A stretch of 64,000 nucleotides of DNA. It comes from Mycobacteriales bacterium (GTDB taxonomy: Bacteria > Actinomycetota > Actinomycetes > JAFAQI01). The stretch covers positions 1 to 64,000 of the forward strand of contig DATJSI010000028.1 in the NCBI GenBank assembly GCA_035504215.1, read 5' to 3'. The translations under genes and the position numbers were made by a program. The notes below the pieces were generated by a model. That model did no database searches and had not been told where the DNA came from. It worked only from the letters and a program-made list of their open reading frames with translations. Numbering within the stretch: the first letter of the stretch is position 1; every line of letters begins with the position of its first letter. Of the stretch, positions 2,664-14,482 are shown in pieces.

Positions 2664-4034
2664 TCAGCGGGACGCGAGGAAGCCGAGGACGTCCTGGCGG
2701 GTGAGGATTCCCACCGGCCGGCCGTCGTCGAGCACCACCGCCGCGTCCGCGTCGTGCAAAGCCGTCATCGCCGCATCCACCGGTTCGCCGGCCCCGATCA
2801 TCGGCAACGGCGCGGACATGTGCCGCTCGAGCGGGTCGGCAAGCCGCGCCGTACCTGCGAACAGCGCGTCCAGCAGGTCCCGCTCCACCACCGAGCCCAT
2901 CACCTCGGCCGCCATGACCGGCGGCTCGGCGCGGACGACGGGCATCTGGGACACGGCGTACTCGCGAAGGATGTCGATCGCCTCGCGAACCGTCTCGTTC
3001 GGATGGACATGGACGAACTGCGGGACCTCGCCGTCCTTGCCGGTGAGCACCTCGCCGACCGTCGCACTGCGCTCGCCGACGGCAAGAAAGCCGTAGTCAG
3101 CCATCCACTCGTCGTTGAAGATCTTGGACAGGTAGCCGCGACCGCCGTCCGGCAGCAGGACGACGACCAGGTCGTCGGGCGTGAGCCGCCGGGCGACGGT
3201 CAGCGCCGCGCACACGGCCATCCCGCAGGAGCCGCCGACCAGAAGCCCTTCTTCGCGCGCGAGCCGCCGAGTCATCAGGAACGAGTCCGCGTCCGACACC
3301 GCGACGATTTCGTCGCAGATCTCGCGGTCGTAGTTCGCCGGCCAGAAGTCCTCTCCGACACCCTCAACCAGGTACGGCCGGCCAGTGCCACCCGAGTAGA
3401 CCGAGCCCTCCGGGTCGGCGCCGATCACCTGCACCTGGCGATCCGACACCTCCTTGAGGTAGCGACCGGTGCCGCTGATCGTGCCGCCGGTGCCCACGCC
3501 CGCGACGAAGTGGGTGATCCGGCCATCGGTCTGCGCCCACAGCTCCGGCCCGGTGGTCTCGAAGTGCGACCTCGGGTTGGCCGGGTTCGAGTACTGGTCG
3601 GGTTTCCAGCCGCCCGGGCGTTCGAGAGCCAGCCGGTCGGAGACGCTGTAGTAGGAGTCCGGGTGCTCGGGCGGCACCGCCGTGGGGCACACGACGACCT
3701 CGGCGCCGTACGCGCGGAGGACGTTGATCTTGTCGCCGGAGACCTTGTCGGGACAGACGAAGACGCAGGAGTAGCCGCGCTGTTGGGCGACGATCGCGAG
3801 CCCGATCCCGGTGTTTCCGCTGGTCGGCTCGACGATCGTGCCACCGGGCTGCAGCTCTCCCGAGCGCTCTGCGTCGTCGATCATCCGCGCCGCGATCCGG
3901 TCCTTGACCGAGCCGCCCGGATTGAAGTACTCAACCTTGGCCAGCACCGGCGCGGCGACGCCTTCGGTGACCGAGTTCAGCCGAACGAGCGGGGTGCGCC
4001 CGATCAGCTCGGCGACTGAGTCGTAGACCTCCAC
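2664..4034 (-). CDS. cbs: Cystathionine beta-synthase
   Basis: PLP enzyme that condenses serine and homocysteine to cystathionine. The N-terminus (VYDSVAELIGRTPLVRL) and the PLP lysine in PGGSVKDRIAARM (K44) are typical. The phosphate-binding loop is EPTSGNTGIGLA, and GTGGTISGTGRYLKE follows in the core. Two CBS domains fill roughly the last 120 residues (from about VGEVLTGKDGEVPQ to the end), giving 456 aa, normal for the actinobacterial form. Start: GTG at 4034. A TTG three codons upstream is also possible, and upstream extension would run into the divergent thiolase. It heads the metB-containing minus-strand group, and only 46 bp separate it from the thiolase start, so divergent promoters must be compact. 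Confidence 0.93.
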   Translation of the reverse strand: MEVYDSVAELIGRTPLVRLNSVTEGVAAPVLAKVEYFNPGGSVKDRIAARMIDDAERSGELQPGGTIVEPTSGNTGIGLAIVAQQRGYSCVFVCPDKVSGDKINVLRAYGAEVVVCPTAVPPEHPDSYYSVSDRLALERPGGWKPDQYSNPANPRSHFETTGPELWAQTDGRITHFVAGVGTGGTISGTGRYLKEVSDRQVQVIGADPEGSVYSGGTGRPYLVEGVGEDFWPANYDREICDEIVAVSDADSFLMTRRLAREEGLLVGGSCGMAVCAALTVARRLTPDDLVVVLLPDGGRGYLSKIFNDEWMADYGFLAVGERSATVGEVLTGKDGEVPQFVHVHPNETVREAIDILREYAVSQMPVVRAEPPVMAAEVMGSVVERDLLDALFAGTARLADPLERHMSAPLPMIGAGEPVDAAMTALHDADAAVVLDDGRPVGILTRQDVLGFLASR

Positions 4035-7032: not shown

Positions 7033-8358
7033 CTACTCGCCGATTGCCCGCGTGAAGTCCCGTCGAGGATCCGCGAACGACCCGAACGAGACGATCTCGC
7101 GCCGGAAGAACAGCGCCAGCGTCCAGTCCGCGATCACTCGAACCTTCCGGTTCAGAGTCGGCAGCCGCGTGACGTGATAGGTGCGGTGCATGAACCACGC
7201 GGGGAAGCCCTTGACCTTGACGCCATAGACCTCGGCAACGCCACGATGCAGGCCGAGGCTCGCGACCGAACCCGCGTACGCGTGCCGGTAGTCCTGGAGC
7301 GGCTTGCCTCTGAGCGCGGCGACGATGTTGTCGGCCAGCCGCTTCGACTGCCGGACCGCGTGCTGAGCGGTCGGCCCGCACAGCGCATTCGGATCGTCCT
7401 TCGTCAGGTCGGGCACCGCCGCGCAGTCACCGGCCGACCAAGCACCATCAACCCCATCGACCCGCAGGTCCGCCTTGCACTTCAGCCGCTTCTTGTCATC
7501 GAGCGGAAGATCGGTTGACTCGAGCAGCGGGTTGGCGCGCACGCCCGCAGTCCACACGATCGTGTCGGCCTCGAACGCCGAGCCGTCGGTCAGGACGACG
7601 TGCCCGTCGACCATCGACTCGACCCTGGTGTTGCGGCGTACCTCGATCGCGCGCTTCTCGAGCTCGCGCACCGTGTACTCCGCCATGTCCTCGCTGACTT
7701 CGGGAAGGATGCGCCCAGTGGCCTCGACCATGACCCAACGCATGTCGCGCTCGGTGAAGCCCGGGTAGAAGCGCATGGCGTCCCGCGCCATGTCCTCGAG
7801 CTCGGCCATCGCCTCGATGCCGGCGTATCCGCCGCCGACAAAGAGAAAGGTGAGGGCGCGCTGCCGCAGCTTCTCGTCCTCGGTCGACGCGGCCAGGTCG
7901 AGCCGCGAAAGCACCTGGTTGCGGAGGTAGATCGCCTCGGCGACGGTGTGGAACCCGATCCCGCGCTCGGCCAGGCCGGGGATCGGAAGGGTGCGCGCGA
8001 TCGATCCCGGTGCGATGACCAGGACGTCGTAGTGCAGGTCGCGACCCGCACCCTCGGACGGCTCGAAGCGCGCAACCCGACGGTCATGGCTCACCGACGT
8101 GATCCGGCCGTTGAGAAGCTCGCAACGCTTCAGCACCGTGCGCAGCGGTACGACGAGGTGCCGTGGTTCTAGGTTGCCGGCCGCCGACTCAGGCAGGAAC
8201 GGCTGGTAGGTCATGTAGGACTGCGGGTCGACGACGGTGACGCGGGCCTCGTCCGCCCGCAGCCGTCGCTGCAGTCGCAGCGCGGTGTACATGCCGACAT
8301 AGCCGCCTCCGACCACAAGAATCCGGGGCGGCGGTGACGTGGTCATGCGCTCGTTCAT
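7033..8358 (-). CDS. ndh: Type II NADH dehydrogenase (NDH-2), FAD-dependent
   Basis: Single-subunit, non-proton-pumping NADH:quinone oxidoreductase of 441 aa that acts at the inner face of the membrane. The N-terminal FAD-binding Rossmann motif is ILVVGGGYVGMYTALRL, and the NAD-binding dinucleotide motif is LTFLFVGGGYAGIEAMAEL. The C-terminal FAD contact VDGAWSAGDCAAVPD is also present. Two close starts are possible, ATG at 8358 (MNERMTTSP) or ATG at 8346; neither has a strong ribosome-binding site. It is divergent from the MFS-GGDEF-EAL gene with 85 bp between them. Length is normal for actinobacterial Ndh (about 440-470 aa). Confidence 0.93.
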   Translation of the reverse strand: MNERMTTSPPPRILVVGGGYVGMYTALRLQRRLRADEARVTVVDPQSYMTYQPFLPESAAGNLEPRHLVVPLRTVLKRCELLNGRITSVSHDRRVARFEPSEGAGRDLHYDVLVIAPGSIARTLPIPGLAERGIGFHTVAEAIYLRNQVLSRLDLAASTEDEKLRQRALTFLFVGGGYAGIEAMAELEDMARDAMRFYPGFTERDMRWVMVEATGRILPEVSEDMAEYTVRELEKRAIEVRRNTRVESMVDGHVVLTDGSAFEADTIVWTAGVRANPLLESTDLPLDDKKRLKCKADLRVDGVDGAWSAGDCAAVPDLTKDDPNALCGPTAQHAVRQSKRLADNIVAALRGKPLQDYRHAYAGSVASLGLHRGVAEVYGVKVKGFPAWFMHRTYHVTRLPTLNRKVRVIADWTLALFFRREIVSFGSFADPRRDFTRAIGE

Positions 8359-8443: not shown

Positions 8444-11400
8444 ATGAGCGAGTCCGTGGGAACGGGCCGCCGGGCGACGTTCCGTGACGTCCTCGCGATC
8501 CACGAGTTCCGCTCGCTCTACCTCGCGCAGACGCTAAGTGTTGCGGGTGATCAGCTCGCGCGGATTGCGGTCGCCTGGATCGTGTATCAGCGCACTCACT
8601 CGCCGTTCCTGACCGGAGTCAGCTACGCCGTCACCTACCTGCCGTGGCTGATCGGCGGCCCACTCGGGTCGGTCTACGCCGACCGGTATCCGCGGCGCAC
8701 CGTGATGATCATCTGCGACGCATTGCGAATGCTGCTCGTCTTGTGCGTCGCGATCCCGCGGATGCCGACCGCCAGCCTGCTCGTCCTGGTCACCTTGGTG
8801 GCCTGCCTCGAGCCGCCGTTCGCCGCGTCGCGTGCCGCCCTCGTGCCCGAAGTCGTGGGCGAAGGAGATGCCTACGTCGCCGCCGCAACTCTCGGGAACT
8901 CCACGAACCAGCTCGCGGTCGTTCTCGGCTTCGCACTGGGCGGCGCACTCGTTGCCTTCGTCGGACCTCACACCGCTCTGGTGGTCGACGCCGTCACGTT
9001 CGCGCTGTCCGGATTGGTCGCGAGCCGCTACGTCGCGCACCGGCCGGCCGCGATGGCCGCTCGCAGCCGGTGGCGTTCGGAGATCAGCGACGGCGCTCGC
9101 GTCGTCTTCGGCGATTCGCGACTGCGCTGGCTGGTCGTCACGTCGTGGATCGTGGTGGGCACCGTCATCGCGACCGAAGCGGTCGCCGTGCCCTATGCGC
9201 ACGCGGACGGCCACGGTGCCTTCGCCGCCGGCCTGCTCAGCGCCGCAGCGCCGCTCGGCATGGTCATCGGCACACTGCTCATGGGCCGGGCGGTACGGCC
9301 GGAGGTCGCCGAACGGTTGATGCTCCCGACCGCGCTGCTGACCCCGGCATTGCTCGCGCTGACCGCCGCCAACTTTGCCATCCCGGCCACCCTCGGCCTG
9401 TGGTGCGTCGCCGGTGCAGCGAGCGCAATGACGGTCATCGCCAACCGGGTCTTCGTGGTCGCCGTGCCCCACGAGCTGCGCGGCCGGGCGTTCGGGATCG
9501 CGGCGGCGGGGATCTCCGGCTCGTACGGGGTCGGCACGCTGCTCGCCGGCCTGCTGACCGCACACGTGGGCCCCGCACACGCCGTGGCCGACATCGCACT
9601 GCCCGCTTTCGCCCTCATCGTCGTGTTCTCGGTCGGCTCGGCCACCTTCAGGCAGCGTCAGCTTCGGTCGATATCGGAACTATCGCCCCCGGAGGAGGAC
9701 GAGGACTCCGCCATGCCGGCACTCAAGCGCCGATCTGAAGCACAGGTCTGGGCGCTCAACGTCGTGCTGGCAGCGATTGCCTGCGCGACGGCACCGATCC
9801 TGCACGGCGACCATGCCTACGCCGGGGTGATCCTGCCGAGCTGGTGGGTGCTCTGCCTGTTCGTCCTCGGCATCGCGTTCCCGCTGCGGTTCGAGTACCG
9901 CCAGCAGTCGTGGAACATCTATCTCGAGACCGTGCCGTTCGTCCTCGGCCTGCTGTTCCTGTCTCCGCTGATGCTGCTGGCGCTCAGGACCGGCGCCGTT
10001 GTGATCACCTACGCGATCCTCCGCCGCCAGCCGCTGATCCGCAGCGTCTTCAACACCGCGAGCTATGCCTGCCACACCCTGGCCGCGATCTGGATGTTCC
10101 GACTGGTCGCGCCGGTCCATGCCGGTGCACATCCCTCGGTGTGGCCGGCCGTGTTCGCCGCGGTGATCTTCAGTGAGCTGGTAGCCGGCTCACTCGTTGC
10201 CCTGGTCATCTCACTCACGGACACCTCGTGGCAACTGAAGCAGAGCGTTCGCACAGCGATGATCGGAACCGGCGTCGCCACCGCGATGGCGTTCCTCGGG
10301 CTCGCCATGGCAGCCGCGATCGACTACGACGAAGCGACGGCATGGGCGATCACCGTCTTCGTCGTACTGACGATCGCGGGCCTGCAGACCTACCAGCGAC
10401 TGTCGGAGCGGGCCAACGCCTTGGACCGTTTGTACGTCGTGGCGCGCGAGCTCAGTCCGACGGCGACCGGACCGGCGGACCTCGCTCCGGCGCTCACCCA
10501 GCTGCGTCGCATCATCAAGGCGGACTCGCTCGAACTCGCGGCACCGTCGGGCAACGAAGGCGAGTTCGCCACTGTCGTCACCGTCTTCGACGACCCGCTC
10601 AAGGGCGAGGGCACGACGGTGTCCGAGCGACCGATCGGCGAGGGGTTCGGTGCCGCCAGTGACAACGCAGCGACCGCGCACTGGTATTCGTTGCCGGGGC
10701 TCGGGCGGCCGCGACGGGCGCATCACGCGCTGTCCGCTCCGGTCCGCGCAAGCGACCGGGTGCTCGGTGAGCTGACCGTTGCCAACCGTCCCGGCGAGTC
10801 AGCCGCCTTCGAACGCGGCGACCTGCGCCTGCTCGAAGCGGCCGCCGACCAGCTGGCCGCCGCACTCGAGAAGGGTCGACTGGTCGAGAGCCTGCGTCGC
10901 GCCGCGACGCTGGACAAGCTCACCGGTCTCGCCAACTTGGAGAGCCTGCGATCCTTCCTTGACACGACTCTCGACGGGTCGGCGGGCGGCGTGCTCGTGC
11001 TGCTCAACATCGACCGGTTCCACGAAGTCAACGACATGCTCGGCCACGACGCCGGCGACAGCGTGCTCGCCGAGGTCGCCCGTCGACTGGAGAGCTCCCC
11101 GACCCACGGCGCCCTGGTTGCGCGCGTCGGCGGCGACCAGTTCGCGTTGGCGATTCCCGGTGCGGCCGGCAGCGAGGTCGCGCGGCTGGCCGCGATGGCG
11201 GTCAAGTCGCGGGTCGACGGCTCGATCCGGTTCGCTGACGTCAGCGCCGATGTTCGCGTCACGCTCGGCATCGCGCGAGCACCCGACCACGGCAGCGATG
11301 CCGCCACCCTGCTCCGACGCGCAGAGATGGCGATGACCGCCGCAAAGGGCAGTAACGCCGGCATCGGTGAGTGGGAGCCCGACTACGAGCGGGACGGGAG

Positions 11401-12190
11401 CCGCCGCCTTCAGCTGCTCGCCGGGTTGCGCAACGCGCTCGGCGACGGTGCGCTGCGCGTCGCCTACCAGCCGAAGCTGCGCCTGGGCAGCGGCGAGGTC
11501 ACCGGCTTCGAGGCGCTGGTCCGTTGGAACCACCCGGAGCTCGGCCCGATCTCTCCCGCCGAGTTCGTCCCGCTCGCCGAAGCGACCGGGCTGATCTCCG
11601 CGCTCACCAGCACCGTCCTGCGTTCAGCGCTCACCACGTGCCGGTCATGGCATGACGCGGGCAAGCCGGTGGGCATTGCCGTGAACATCTCAGCACGCAG
11701 TCTCGACGACTCGGTGCTGGTCGGCCAGGTCGCGGCGATGCTGACCGCGAGCGGGCTCGAGCCGCGTTGGCTCACCTTGGAAATCACGGAGAGCAGCGTC
11801 ATGGAGGACCAGTCGCGAAGTGTTGACGTCCTTCGCGAGCTGCGCATGCTCGGCGTACGCCTGTCCATCGACGACTTCGGCACTGGTTACTCGTCGCTGC
11901 ACCAACTTCGAGGGCTGCCCGTGCACGAGGTGAAGATCGACCGCACCTTCGTCGAGACCGTGGACTCCGACGAGGCGGACCGCGCGGTGGTTCGCGCCGT
12001 AGTCGAGCTGTGCGACTCACTCGGTCTGGTCACCGTCGCCGAAGGCGTGGAGAAGGCCGCCCAGGCCTACGCGCTCGAAACCCTCGGAGTCGCCCAGGTG
12101 CAGGGCTACTTCCACGGCCGCCCGATGACCGAGGCGGCGGCGATGGAGTGGCTGCTCCCGCGCCGGGTGGCAACCTTCGCCAACTTCTGA
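8444..12190 (+). CDS. MFS transporter fused to a membrane-GAF-GGDEF-EAL cyclic-di-GMP protein (1248 aa)
   Basis: One uninterrupted frame joins two proteins usually found apart. Residues about 15-410 are an MFS exporter-like domain with about 12 hydrophobic segments and the loop motif GSVYADRYPRRTVM. A charged linker (PPEEDEDS) leads to M424 and a second membrane block to about 650. A GAF-like region (about 670-815) follows, then GGDEF (DKLTGLANLE opening; active site GGDQF, 896-900) and EAL (FEALVRW, 1023-1025; DDFGTGYSSL near 1143; EGVE). EAL metal ligands look intact, so phosphodiesterase activity is likely. The GGDEF site has Gln for the second acidic residue and no RxxD inhibitory site, so cyclase activity is doubtful. 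ATG 9713, after GGAGGAGG, could start a shorter product without the MFS part. Confidence 0.9.
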   Translation: MSESVGTGRRATFRDVLAIHEFRSLYLAQTLSVAGDQLARIAVAWIVYQRTHSPFLTGVSYAVTYLPWLIGGPLGSVYADRYPRRTVMIICDALRMLLVLCVAIPRMPTASLLVLVTLVACLEPPFAASRAALVPEVVGEGDAYVAAATLGNSTNQLAVVLGFALGGALVAFVGPHTALVVDAVTFALSGLVASRYVAHRPAAMAARSRWRSEISDGARVVFGDSRLRWLVVTSWIVVGTVIATEAVAVPYAHADGHGAFAAGLLSAAAPLGMVIGTLLMGRAVRPEVAERLMLPTALLTPALLALTAANFAIPATLGLWCVAGAASAMTVIANRVFVVAVPHELRGRAFGIAAAGISGSYGVGTLLAGLLTAHVGPAHAVADIALPAFALIVVFSVGSATFRQRQLRSISELSPPEEDEDSAMPALKRRSEAQVWALNVVLAAIACATAPILHGDHAYAGVILPSWWVLCLFVLGIAFPLRFEYRQQSWNIYLETVPFVLGLLFLSPLMLLALRTGAVVITYAILRRQPLIRSVFNTASYACHTLAAIWMFRLVAPVHAGAHPSVWPAVFAAVIFSELVAGSLVALVISLTDTSWQLKQSVRTAMIGTGVATAMAFLGLAMAAAIDYDEATAWAITVFVVLTIAGLQTYQRLSERANALDRLYVVARELSPTATGPADLAPALTQLRRIIKADSLELAAPSGNEGEFATVVTVFDDPLKGEGTTVSERPIGEGFGAASDNAATAHWYSLPGLGRPRRAHHALSAPVRASDRVLGELTVANRPGESAAFERGDLRLLEAAADQLAAALEKGRLVESLRRAATLDKLTGLANLESLRSFLDTTLDGSAGGVLVLLNIDRFHEVNDMLGHDAGDSVLAEVARRLESSPTHGALVARVGGDQFALAIPGAAGSEVARLAAMAVKSRVDGSIRFADVSADVRVTLGIARAPDHGSDAATLLRRAEMAMTAAKGSNAGIGEWEPDYERDGSRRLQLLAGLRNALGDGALRVAYQPKLRLGSGEVTGFEALVRWNHPELGPISPAEFVPLAEATGLISALTSTVLRSALTTCRSWHDAGKPVGIAVNISARSLDDSVLVGQVAAMLTASGLEPRWLTLEITESSVMEDQSRSVDVLRELRMLGVRLSIDDFGTGYSSLHQLRGLPVHEVKIDRTFVETVDSDEADRAVVRAVVELCDSLGLVTVAEGVEKAAQAYALETLGVAQVQGYFHGRPMTEAAAMEWLLPRRVATFANF

Positions 12191-12194
12191 GCCG

Positions 12195-13097
12195 CTACCG
12201 CGCAGGAACAAGCCGGTCGAGCGCGGCCGGAAGGTCGGCGCTGTCCGCTGCGGCTTCCGGCGTCAACGTGGCGAGGTCGGTCGCTGCGAGCGACTCGTAG
12301 ACGACGGCCATCGCGTCGTAGAGCTCGGGTCGCGCACCTGCCGCCTCCTGAGTGTCCGCGATCTGGTGCATCTCGCCGACGTACCTGCTTGCCTTCGACG
12401 CCGCCATCGCAATGCGGGTCGCAGCGTCCTCGATCAGCTGGCCGAACTCTTCAGACAGATCCGCCAGCACGATGTCGAGGACGTCGTTCGCATACGCCGT
12501 GCGCAATGCCTGGACGATGAGCGCGGTGAAGCCCTTGTAGACAGCGGCCGTCGACATCTTCACCGCAGACGCGGTTCCGATGCGGTCACCGACCTTCTTC
12601 GAAGCAAGCCCGACGCCTCTCAAGCGCACAACGGTGTCCGCCGACGGGCCCGAGAGATACAGATGCGTGGTCGATCCCGGCCTGGGTGGCCCGCCGCTGA
12701 TCGATCCGTCGATCAGCTCGCAGCCGGCCGGCACGAGTACGGCGGCAATCCGGGCAACGGTCGCCGGCGAGATCGCGTTGAGGTCAGCCACTCGCGGCTG
12801 ACTGCCGGTCGCCACGCACGCTGCGGCGATCTCACGCGACATCGCGACCGCTTCGGCCGGCGGGCCGATGCTGACGACCAGATCCGCAGCCGCAACGACC
12901 GCCTCGAGGTCCGGGAGTGTCGTCAGGTTCTCGGCAAGCGAGCGAGTGCGCTCGCTGCGCCCGGCAACGGTGGTCACCACGTCGCAGCCTTCGTCTCGCC
13001 AGGCCCGGCCGAGAGCGCTGCCCATCGCGCCCGGTGAATAGATGCCGATCGTCGTCGTGGTCACACCGTCAGTGTCGACGATCGGGTCGATCGTCAT
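12195..13097 (-). CDS. NAD(P)-binding oxidoreductase with DUF1932 C-terminal domain
   Basis: 6-phosphogluconate-dehydrogenase-like protein of 300 aa. The N-terminal Rossmann fold shows IGIYSPGAMGSALGRAW, and GSISGGPPRPG is the usual substrate-loop region of the beta-hydroxyacid dehydrogenase superfamily. After about residue 185 comes an all-helical DUF1932-type domain (SAVKMSTAAVYKGFTALIVQAL), including the conserved lysine that is catalytic in relatives. The physiological substrate is unknown. It is convergent with the MFS-GGDEF-EAL gene, with only 4 bp between the stop codons. Start: ATG at 13097. Confidence 0.85.
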   Translation of the reverse strand: MTIDPIVDTDGVTTTTIGIYSPGAMGSALGRAWRDEGCDVVTTVAGRSERTRSLAENLTTLPDLEAVVAAADLVVSIGPPAEAVAMSREIAAACVATGSQPRVADLNAISPATVARIAAVLVPAGCELIDGSISGGPPRPGSTTHLYLSGPSADTVVRLRGVGLASKKVGDRIGTASAVKMSTAAVYKGFTALIVQALRTAYANDVLDIVLADLSEEFGQLIEDAATRIAMAASKASRYVGEMHQIADTQEAAGARPELYDAMAVVYESLAATDLATLTPEAAADSADLPAALDRLVPAR

Positions 13098-13619: not shown

Positions 13620-14432
13620 TCAGTTTGACTTTCCGATCTGACCACGCGCCCGGGCGAAGACGGCGTCGAGCATGGGTTCGGTCAGCTTTCCGGTGAACGT
13701 GTTCTGTTGGCTCGGGTGGTAGCAAGCGACGAGCAACAGGCCGTCCGGGGTCGATACCTCCACGCCGTGGCCGAACCTGGCTCTGGCCCTCGGCAGGTCG
13801 TAGCCGAGCTCGCGCAGCACCGGCCACGACGCCGTCCACGCGAAGTTGCCGAGTGCGACCACGACCCGAAGCGTCGGGCGGAGGAGCGACAGCTCGCGAA
13901 CCAGCCACGGCCGGCAGGTGAGCCGCTCCGCCGGCGTCGGAAGGTTCTGCGGCGGCGCGCAGCGGACGGCCGCAAGCATGCGAACGTCGATCAACGCCTG
14001 CCCGTCGCCCGCGGTGACCGACGTCGCAAGCCGGGCCAACCCGTTGCGATGCAATGACGCGAACAACCAGTCGCCGCTGCGGTCACCGGTGAAGACGCGG
14101 CCGGTGCGGTTGCCGCCGTGCGCCGCTGGGGCGAGCCCGACCACCGCGATGCGGGCGTCCGCAGGTCCCCAGCCGGTGACCGGCCGCCCCCAGTACGCCT
14201 CGGTGGCGAACGACGCCCGCTTGGTGGTCGCGACCGTCTCGCGCCACTCGACCAGGCGAGGGCAAGCCCGGCAGACCGAAACACGCGCGTCCAGATCGCC
14301 GAGCTGCTCAGCACTCGCGGCGAGCGCCACGACCTCGTCAGATGTCGTCGCCACCGGCGTAGCAGCATCAGCGAGGTCGCCGGGCCAACCGGTTCCCGGC
14401 GCCACGACCATCGCGCCATCCCACCACGGCAT
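13620..14432 (-). CDS. Uracil-DNA glycosylase, family 5 (UdgB type)
   Basis: DNA-repair enzyme that removes uracil and some deaminated bases. Diagnostic segments are GLAPAAHGGNRTGRVFTGDRSG (active-site motif, lacking the Asp of other families, as in family 5) and CYHPSQQNTFTGKLT (second motif). Cysteines for a [4Fe-4S] cluster are seen in SVCRACPR, AVRCAPP, LTCRPW and the CYHPS segment. I chose the ATG at 14432 (MPWWDGAMVVAPG); TTG 14450 and GTG 14444 in frame are alternatives. The product is 270 aa, usual for the family. It is a single minus-strand gene downstream of the repeated palindrome. Confidence 0.88.
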   Translation of the reverse strand: MPWWDGAMVVAPGTGWPGDLADAATPVATTSDEVVALAASAEQLGDLDARVSVCRACPRLVEWRETVATTKRASFATEAYWGRPVTGWGPADARIAVVGLAPAAHGGNRTGRVFTGDRSGDWLFASLHRNGLARLATSVTAGDGQALIDVRMLAAVRCAPPQNLPTPAERLTCRPWLVRELSLLRPTLRVVVALGNFAWTASWPVLRELGYDLPRARARFGHGVEVSTPDGLLLVACYHPSQQNTFTGKLTEPMLDAVFARARGQIGKSN

Positions 14433-14482
14433 CCGACCGGGCACTTCCAAGGCACCGCTTCACCCGCGCCCCCACCATTCCG

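Follow-up and report, generated by a model that had tools for sequence, protein, structure and literature searches.

The reading frame at 8444-12190 (+) of the 64,000 nt stretch analysed here (the window) is confirmed, at the level of sequence comparison, as a genuine gene fusion, with conservation across a single family of the class Actinomycetes. It joins an MFS transporter to a second membrane domain followed by GAF, GGDEF and EAL domains. We consider it moderately probable that the product is a transceptor-like c-di-GMP phosphodiesterase (PDE) with a coupled MFS, a receptor, a degenerate GGDEF and an intact EAL, a reading in which we infer the ligand, the coupling, the direction of control and the enzyme activity.

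The frame of 1248 codons is uninterrupted and starts with an ATG preceded by a good Shine-Dalgarno sequence, AGGGGG (duplex -9.4 kcal/mol). From N to C terminus the protein consists of a 12-helix MFS, an acidic linker, the second membrane domain (placed by hydropathy and AF2 models), GAF, GGDEF and EAL (Table 1). The original prediction had claimed both the single stop-free frame and this order of parts, and both are borne out by the open frame and by Pfam, hydropathy and the AF2 models. A scan for promoters and terminators found none.

In a search of 40 relatives, near-full-length matches in one frame were found in G001 (64%), G007 (61%) and G006, G011 and G009 (60% each). When aligned over the whole protein, the orthologues are 59-63% identical to the window protein, and the full-length ones have a near-constant length of 1249-1256 codons including the stop. 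The copy of G010 ends with its contig, yet its frame reads through the MFS/PDE junction. The fusion is thus present in 7 of 12 family genomes (the window, five full-length others and one contig-truncated). The in-frame join that had been predicted is therefore genuine, since the same architecture recurs in five further independently assembled genomes besides the truncated one, and the search for homologues that had been proposed as a check shows that the two halves are not always separate genes. In G003 the copy is cut right at the junction by the contig end and is not informative for the fusion state, and in G002, G004, G005 and G008 the PDE half was not matched at orthologue level. A contig scan with the single fusion protein as query gave no matches; with a profile it returned mostly generic GGDEF-EAL proteins. 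Two contigs of G010 (C7 and C529) end in near-identical, but not identical, fragments of the MFS half, which suggests a strain mixture or an assembly broken at the fusion gene.

Gene order is shared as well. A divergent NDH-2-like gene, the fusion and a UDG-like gene follow each other in every contig long enough to show neighbours. In the window only, the fusion and the UDG-like gene are separated by a DUF1932/NAD-binding dehydrogenase gene (12195-13097, -); none was found there in relatives.

Table 1 Features of the fusion gene and its neighbourhood. Positions are those of the window. Pfam scores are in bits, with the curated cut-off in parentheses.
Feature	Position	Strand	Basis
Whole fusion gene	8444..12190	+	Single open frame; same-architecture orthologues in G001, G006, G007, G009, G011, partial in G010
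MFS transporter domain, aa ~12-400, 12 TM helices, motif-A-like ADRYPRR	8477..9643	+	Pfam MFS_1 81.4 (33.4) at aa 25-306, MFS_3 53.5 (27); AF2 model
Variable acidic linker, aa ~401-424, predicted disordered	9644..9715	+	pLDDT <50 at 406-424; identity among lowest in protein
Internal ATG, codon 424, possible relic or alternative start of separate PDE gene	9713..9715	+	ATG/GTG aligned in 6 of 7 fused genes
Second membrane domain, aa ~425-655, probable S-component-like fold	9716..10408	+	AF2 model (pLDDT 89, pTM 0.83); Foldseek
GAF domain, best Pfam stretch aa 745-808	10676..10867	+	Pfam 28.9 (22.4)
GGDEF domain, aa 821-969, GGDQF	10904..11350	+	Pfam 100.6 (23.8); I-site absent, Asn replaces first Asp of DxD
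EAL phosphodiesterase domain, aa 995-1227	11426..12124	+	Pfam 235.5 (31.3); conserved residues
NDH-2-like pyridine nucleotide-disulphide oxidoreductase, divergent conserved neighbour	7033..8346	-	Pfam, synteny
Downstream conserved neighbour, uracil-DNA-glycosylase (UDG)-like by eye	13620..14450	-	Syntenic in relatives

Domains of the fusion protein

The motif GGDQF and the lack of an RxxD I-site are common to all seven fused copies, and the first Asp of the DxD metal site is Asn in the window (G000) and G001. The features of an active diguanylate cyclase, a canonical GG(D/E)EF with an intact DxD and an RxxD I-site, were thus not found, the I-site being unneeded for cyclase activity and required only for product inhibition. 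In the EAL domain, E1023, N1081, E1113, D1143, D1144, K1164, E1200 and Q1220 are kept in all seven copies. The signature residues of a c-di-GMP phosphodiesterase, including the EGVE catalytic base and loop 6 DDFGTGYSS, are therefore present. Apart from the EAL and EGVE glutamates, the roles of these residues are general knowledge of EAL enzymes. The roles of the two glutamates have been described (PMC12900916). The copy of G001 reads EGL for EAL (codon at window A1024), with the Glu and the other catalytic residues kept. Among solved structures, the 'Motility regulator' 4rni and MucR have the most closely related EAL domains.

The GGDQF without I-site and the intact EAL motifs, noted earlier for the window, hence hold across the fused copies apart from the EGL of G001, and together they favour the output that had been proposed, c-di-GMP breakdown. 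Proteins with GGDQF differ, since RgsP has no cyclase activity and is an active PDE (PMC6107284) whereas ZMO1055 has cyclase activity (PMC12900916), so that the net direction of turnover is not certain. From its motifs, the output of the fusion is likely, although not certainly, that of a c-di-GMP phosphodiesterase. GGDEF domains can moreover serve for docking, which is the case in Streptomyces RmdB (PMC13232838). RmdB and other membrane GGDEF-EAL PDEs resemble the fusion in having a multi-helix membrane region and a GGDEF-EAL acting as a PDE in an actinomycete (PMC13232838). Unlike the fusion, RmdB has no MFS and no GAF listed; its GGDEF motif is dispensable and the domain binds a sigma factor.

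In the AF2 model of aa 1-700 the MFS half, which also passes the Pfam gathering score, is a complete 12-helix fold. It aligns to solved MFS proteins, drug:proton antiporters among them, with a TM-score by target length of 0.82 for SotB. Sequence matches to EntS, Tap and MefB are weak and below the NCBIfam equivalog cut-offs, and for the H+ antiporter subfamily TIGR00900 the cut-off was not reached (159.6 vs 319.6 bits). The MFS half resembles MFS_3/EntS/Mef/Tap-type exporters (Pfam MFS_1, MFS_3), which unlike the fusion are standalone transporters, and it appears to be an exporter-type permease.

The second membrane domain matched no Pfam family. For its AF2 model the best Foldseek matches in the PDB are the ECF-transporter S-components RibU, CbiM, BioY and FolT, with probabilities mostly of 0.9-1.0 but E-values of 0.04-0.6 and TM-scores by target of 0.44-0.66. 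No sequence homology to PDB chains was found. A Pfam scan of 33 members of the domain gave no ECF_trnsprt, BioY or 5TMR_LYT assignment, the sole marginal match being to ECF_trnsprt (E 0.064), and hhalign with the ECF_trnsprt and BioY profiles gave nothing, a comparison of low power as these two profiles miss each other too. The model points to a domain that is probably a receptor of S-component-like fold, and its last helix (632-673) continues as a signalling helix. Receptors with an S-component fold are known, GGDEF and EAL being among their outputs (PMC11109136), and given this resemblance both membrane modules of the fusion look transporter-derived. The 5TMR (PF07694) receptors of this fold likewise place a membrane receptor before GAF, GGDEF or EAL (PMC11109136); the fusion differs in having no PF07694 match and an extra N-terminal MFS. 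S-component-fold kinases of Gram-positives are almost only from Bacillota (PMC11109136), whereas the fusion is from Actinomycetota. The same type of domain, without a Pfam match, also heads standalone GAF-GGDEF-EAL relatives (e.g. L010-L017 and L051-L071). Since these MFS-less relatives are complete proteins, the MFS would supply a further input rather than the sole sensing part.

Divergence is uneven along the protein. In the closest pair, G006/G009, omega is 0.22 in the MFS and 0.19 in the second membrane domain, rises to 0.55 in the linker and falls to 0.03-0.07 in GAF/GGDEF/EAL, dS being high in more distant pairs. On this sequence evidence both halves are under purifying selection. Between G006 and G011, at similar dS, identity is 92-98% in GAF-GGDEF-EAL, 60% in the MFS and 54% in the second membrane domain, with a step near residue 640. 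This is suggestive, and only suggestive, of the MFS and second membrane domain behaving as variable inputs on a frozen output, as membrane domains often evolve faster anyway.

History and proposed coupling of the two halves

In G023, from another family of the class, the MFS (43% identical to the window) and the PDE (50%) are adjacent genes at the same locus with a 4-nt overlap, ATGA. This overlap, together with a Shine-Dalgarno sequence (AGGAAG), fits a real coupled pair. Codon usage of the last 20 linker codons of G023 favours neither frame clearly, and for this split it is difficult to rule out an error of one base or a frameshift of recent date. At the G023 locus (L009, around position 3999, -) the frame of the downstream gene continues without a stop on its 5' side into the MFS, and it encodes there an acidic stretch, DEDDGDH, that resembles the linkers of the fused copies.

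In trees of each half the fused copies form one supported clade (100/99 in both halves), and the G023 PDE is sister to the fused PDE clade against MFS-less paralogues (100/100). A third state is seen in G004, where a solitary MFS stands at the same locus between the NDH-2-like and UDG-like genes without a PDE. This MFS nests among the fused copies (98/97), which makes a loss of the PDE half in G004 probable. The PDE clade (support 100/100) always comes with an MFS, fused in seven and adjacent in one of its eight informative members, the cut-off G003 not being counted. A match to the membrane-GAF region (E up to 1e-20) occurs in 44 of the 395 genomes sampled from the class. At the fetched loci outside the fused/G023 clade no MFS of the fusion type precedes the membrane-GAF-GGDEF-EAL paralogues, and none precedes the two best matches from elsewhere in the phylum. 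Other MFS relatives, like that of G004, also stand alone. Taken together, the MFS seems able to work as a transporter by itself, and of the two partners it is the PDE that seems to need the other. The simplest history would be an overlapping operon, fusion at the base of the family and loss of the PDE in one genus, with the polarity from split to fused resting on one split genome, G023, whose linker reading frame is not certifiable by codon usage. MFS relatives of family f12 with frames of 800-825 aa were considered as further fusions and rejected, their extra length being non-coding reading upstream of the MFS start.

Because the fusion is genuine and conserved and both halves are under purifying selection, it is fair to infer that c-di-GMP turnover is directly coupled to a transporter-like module. 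The exporter-type MFS would be tied by a flexible acidic linker, cytoplasmic by the usual MFS topology, to the S-component-like membrane receptor. It would handle a small molecule, which could be sensed through the conformational cycle of the MFS or by being handed to, or withdrawn from, the receptor next to it. The last receptor helix would run into GAF, the degenerate GGDEF and EAL; a shift in the helix-GAF-GGDEF arrangement would then alter EAL activity and lower c-di-GMP, such that transporter and receptor occupancy together set the activity.

A conserved fusion can also serve stoichiometry or co-localisation without allosteric coupling. The fusion would then fix a 1:1 ratio and place the PDE beside the exporter, where it may control the exporter, the surroundings of the exporter or nothing at all, and the MFS would send no signal to the EAL. 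We regard this as rather unlikely, although several observations agree with it: the split operon of G023 already gives co-expression, the disordered and fast-evolving linker is poor for tight mechanical coupling, and the MFS survives without the PDE in G004. The PDE clade, however, was not seen without the MFS, and fast divergence of the MFS and receptor on a frozen GAF-EAL is what is expected of two ligand inputs.

The linker region and the reading frame

The original prediction had also pointed to the internal ATG at 9713, preceded by GGAGGAGG, as a possible start of a separate signalling protein. The ATG exists. However, GGAGGAGG (9691-9698) ends 14 nt upstream of it, which is far for a Shine-Dalgarno sequence, though a GAGGA (9701-9705) has a spacing of 7 nt. 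In six of the seven fused genes an ATG or GTG (GTG in two) follows a purine-rich stretch, and 9-11 codons separate it from the point where conservation of the second domain sets in; in G011 the aligned position lacks a start of this kind. Duplex energies at the internal starts, about -4.6 to -6.4 kcal/mol, compare with -5.0 at the separate start of G023. When the same amino acids were recoded synonymously, Shine-Dalgarno matches were equal to or stronger than the real ones. There is therefore no sign of selection for internal initiation beyond the acidic linker, and at the codon level the internal start was rejected as a selected feature because the acidic protein sequence fully explains the match.

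The separate protein thus finds no support beyond composition. That cells hold a PDE-only protein, made from a start near codon 424 as a relic of the former separate gene, beside the MFS-PDE is in our view improbable: the aligned starts, their G023-like energies and the location of the separate start of G023 in the same region would agree with it, whereas the synonymous shuffles, the missing start of G011 and the two GTG codons count against it. The internal start itself may be a relic of a former separate-gene start. Finally, an assembly or sequencing error that joined two adjacent genes is excluded for practical purposes by the recurrent fusion and conserved gene order in relatives; errors of one base could join or separate two genes of this kind, as the open upstream frame in G023 illustrates, but the same in-frame join with a similar linker and near-constant length in independent assemblies at 59-63% identity makes such an error scarcely credible.

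Relation to known transporter-receptors

A complete transporter fold and a signalling output are found in one chain, which is the architecture of a transceptor. The term has been used for CbrA (PMC13022988), whose translation is coupled to that of an upstream ORF overlapping it (PMC6591292) and which belongs to an SLC5-STAC histidine kinase family, CbrA/CrbS/RpuS (PMC9100948). As in the fusion, a complete transporter domain is connected in these proteins through a linker to a signalling output. They differ in that they combine SLC5, a STAC linker and a histidine kinase, whereas the fusion combines MFS, a second membrane receptor and a c-di-GMP phosphodiesterase; no SLC5/SSF or STAC Pfam match was found in the fusion. 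In the Amt-histidine kinase Ks-Amt5 a transporter fold is reused as the sensor of a fused signalling enzyme, as we propose here, although Ks-Amt5 is an Amt trimer that has lost transport and has a kinase output (PMC5764959). A search of literature available without subscription found no described MFS-GGDEF, MFS-EAL or transporter-GGDEF fusion, which is no proof of novelty.

A more specific possibility, which we put forward tentatively, is that the fusion is a double transporter-derived sensor, in which the transport cycle of the MFS is read by the S-component-fold receptor and converted directly to c-di-GMP breakdown. It would then be the first MFS transceptor of c-di-GMP signalling, with the path from operon to fusion to PDE loss preserved. 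If the S-component reading is right, the fusion carries two transporter-type folds in series. The second membrane domain is in addition a candidate unnamed receptor domain of Actinomycetota, given its occurrence among the sampled genomes of the class.

Transporter-receptors are few, and those found feed histidine kinases. If the proposed coupling is true, the MFS-PDE fusion would tie c-di-GMP, the messenger of biofilm and development, directly to a small molecule that is exported or taken up, and the split, fused and MFS-only states, comparable in one lineage, may help to understand why transporters get wired into signalling.
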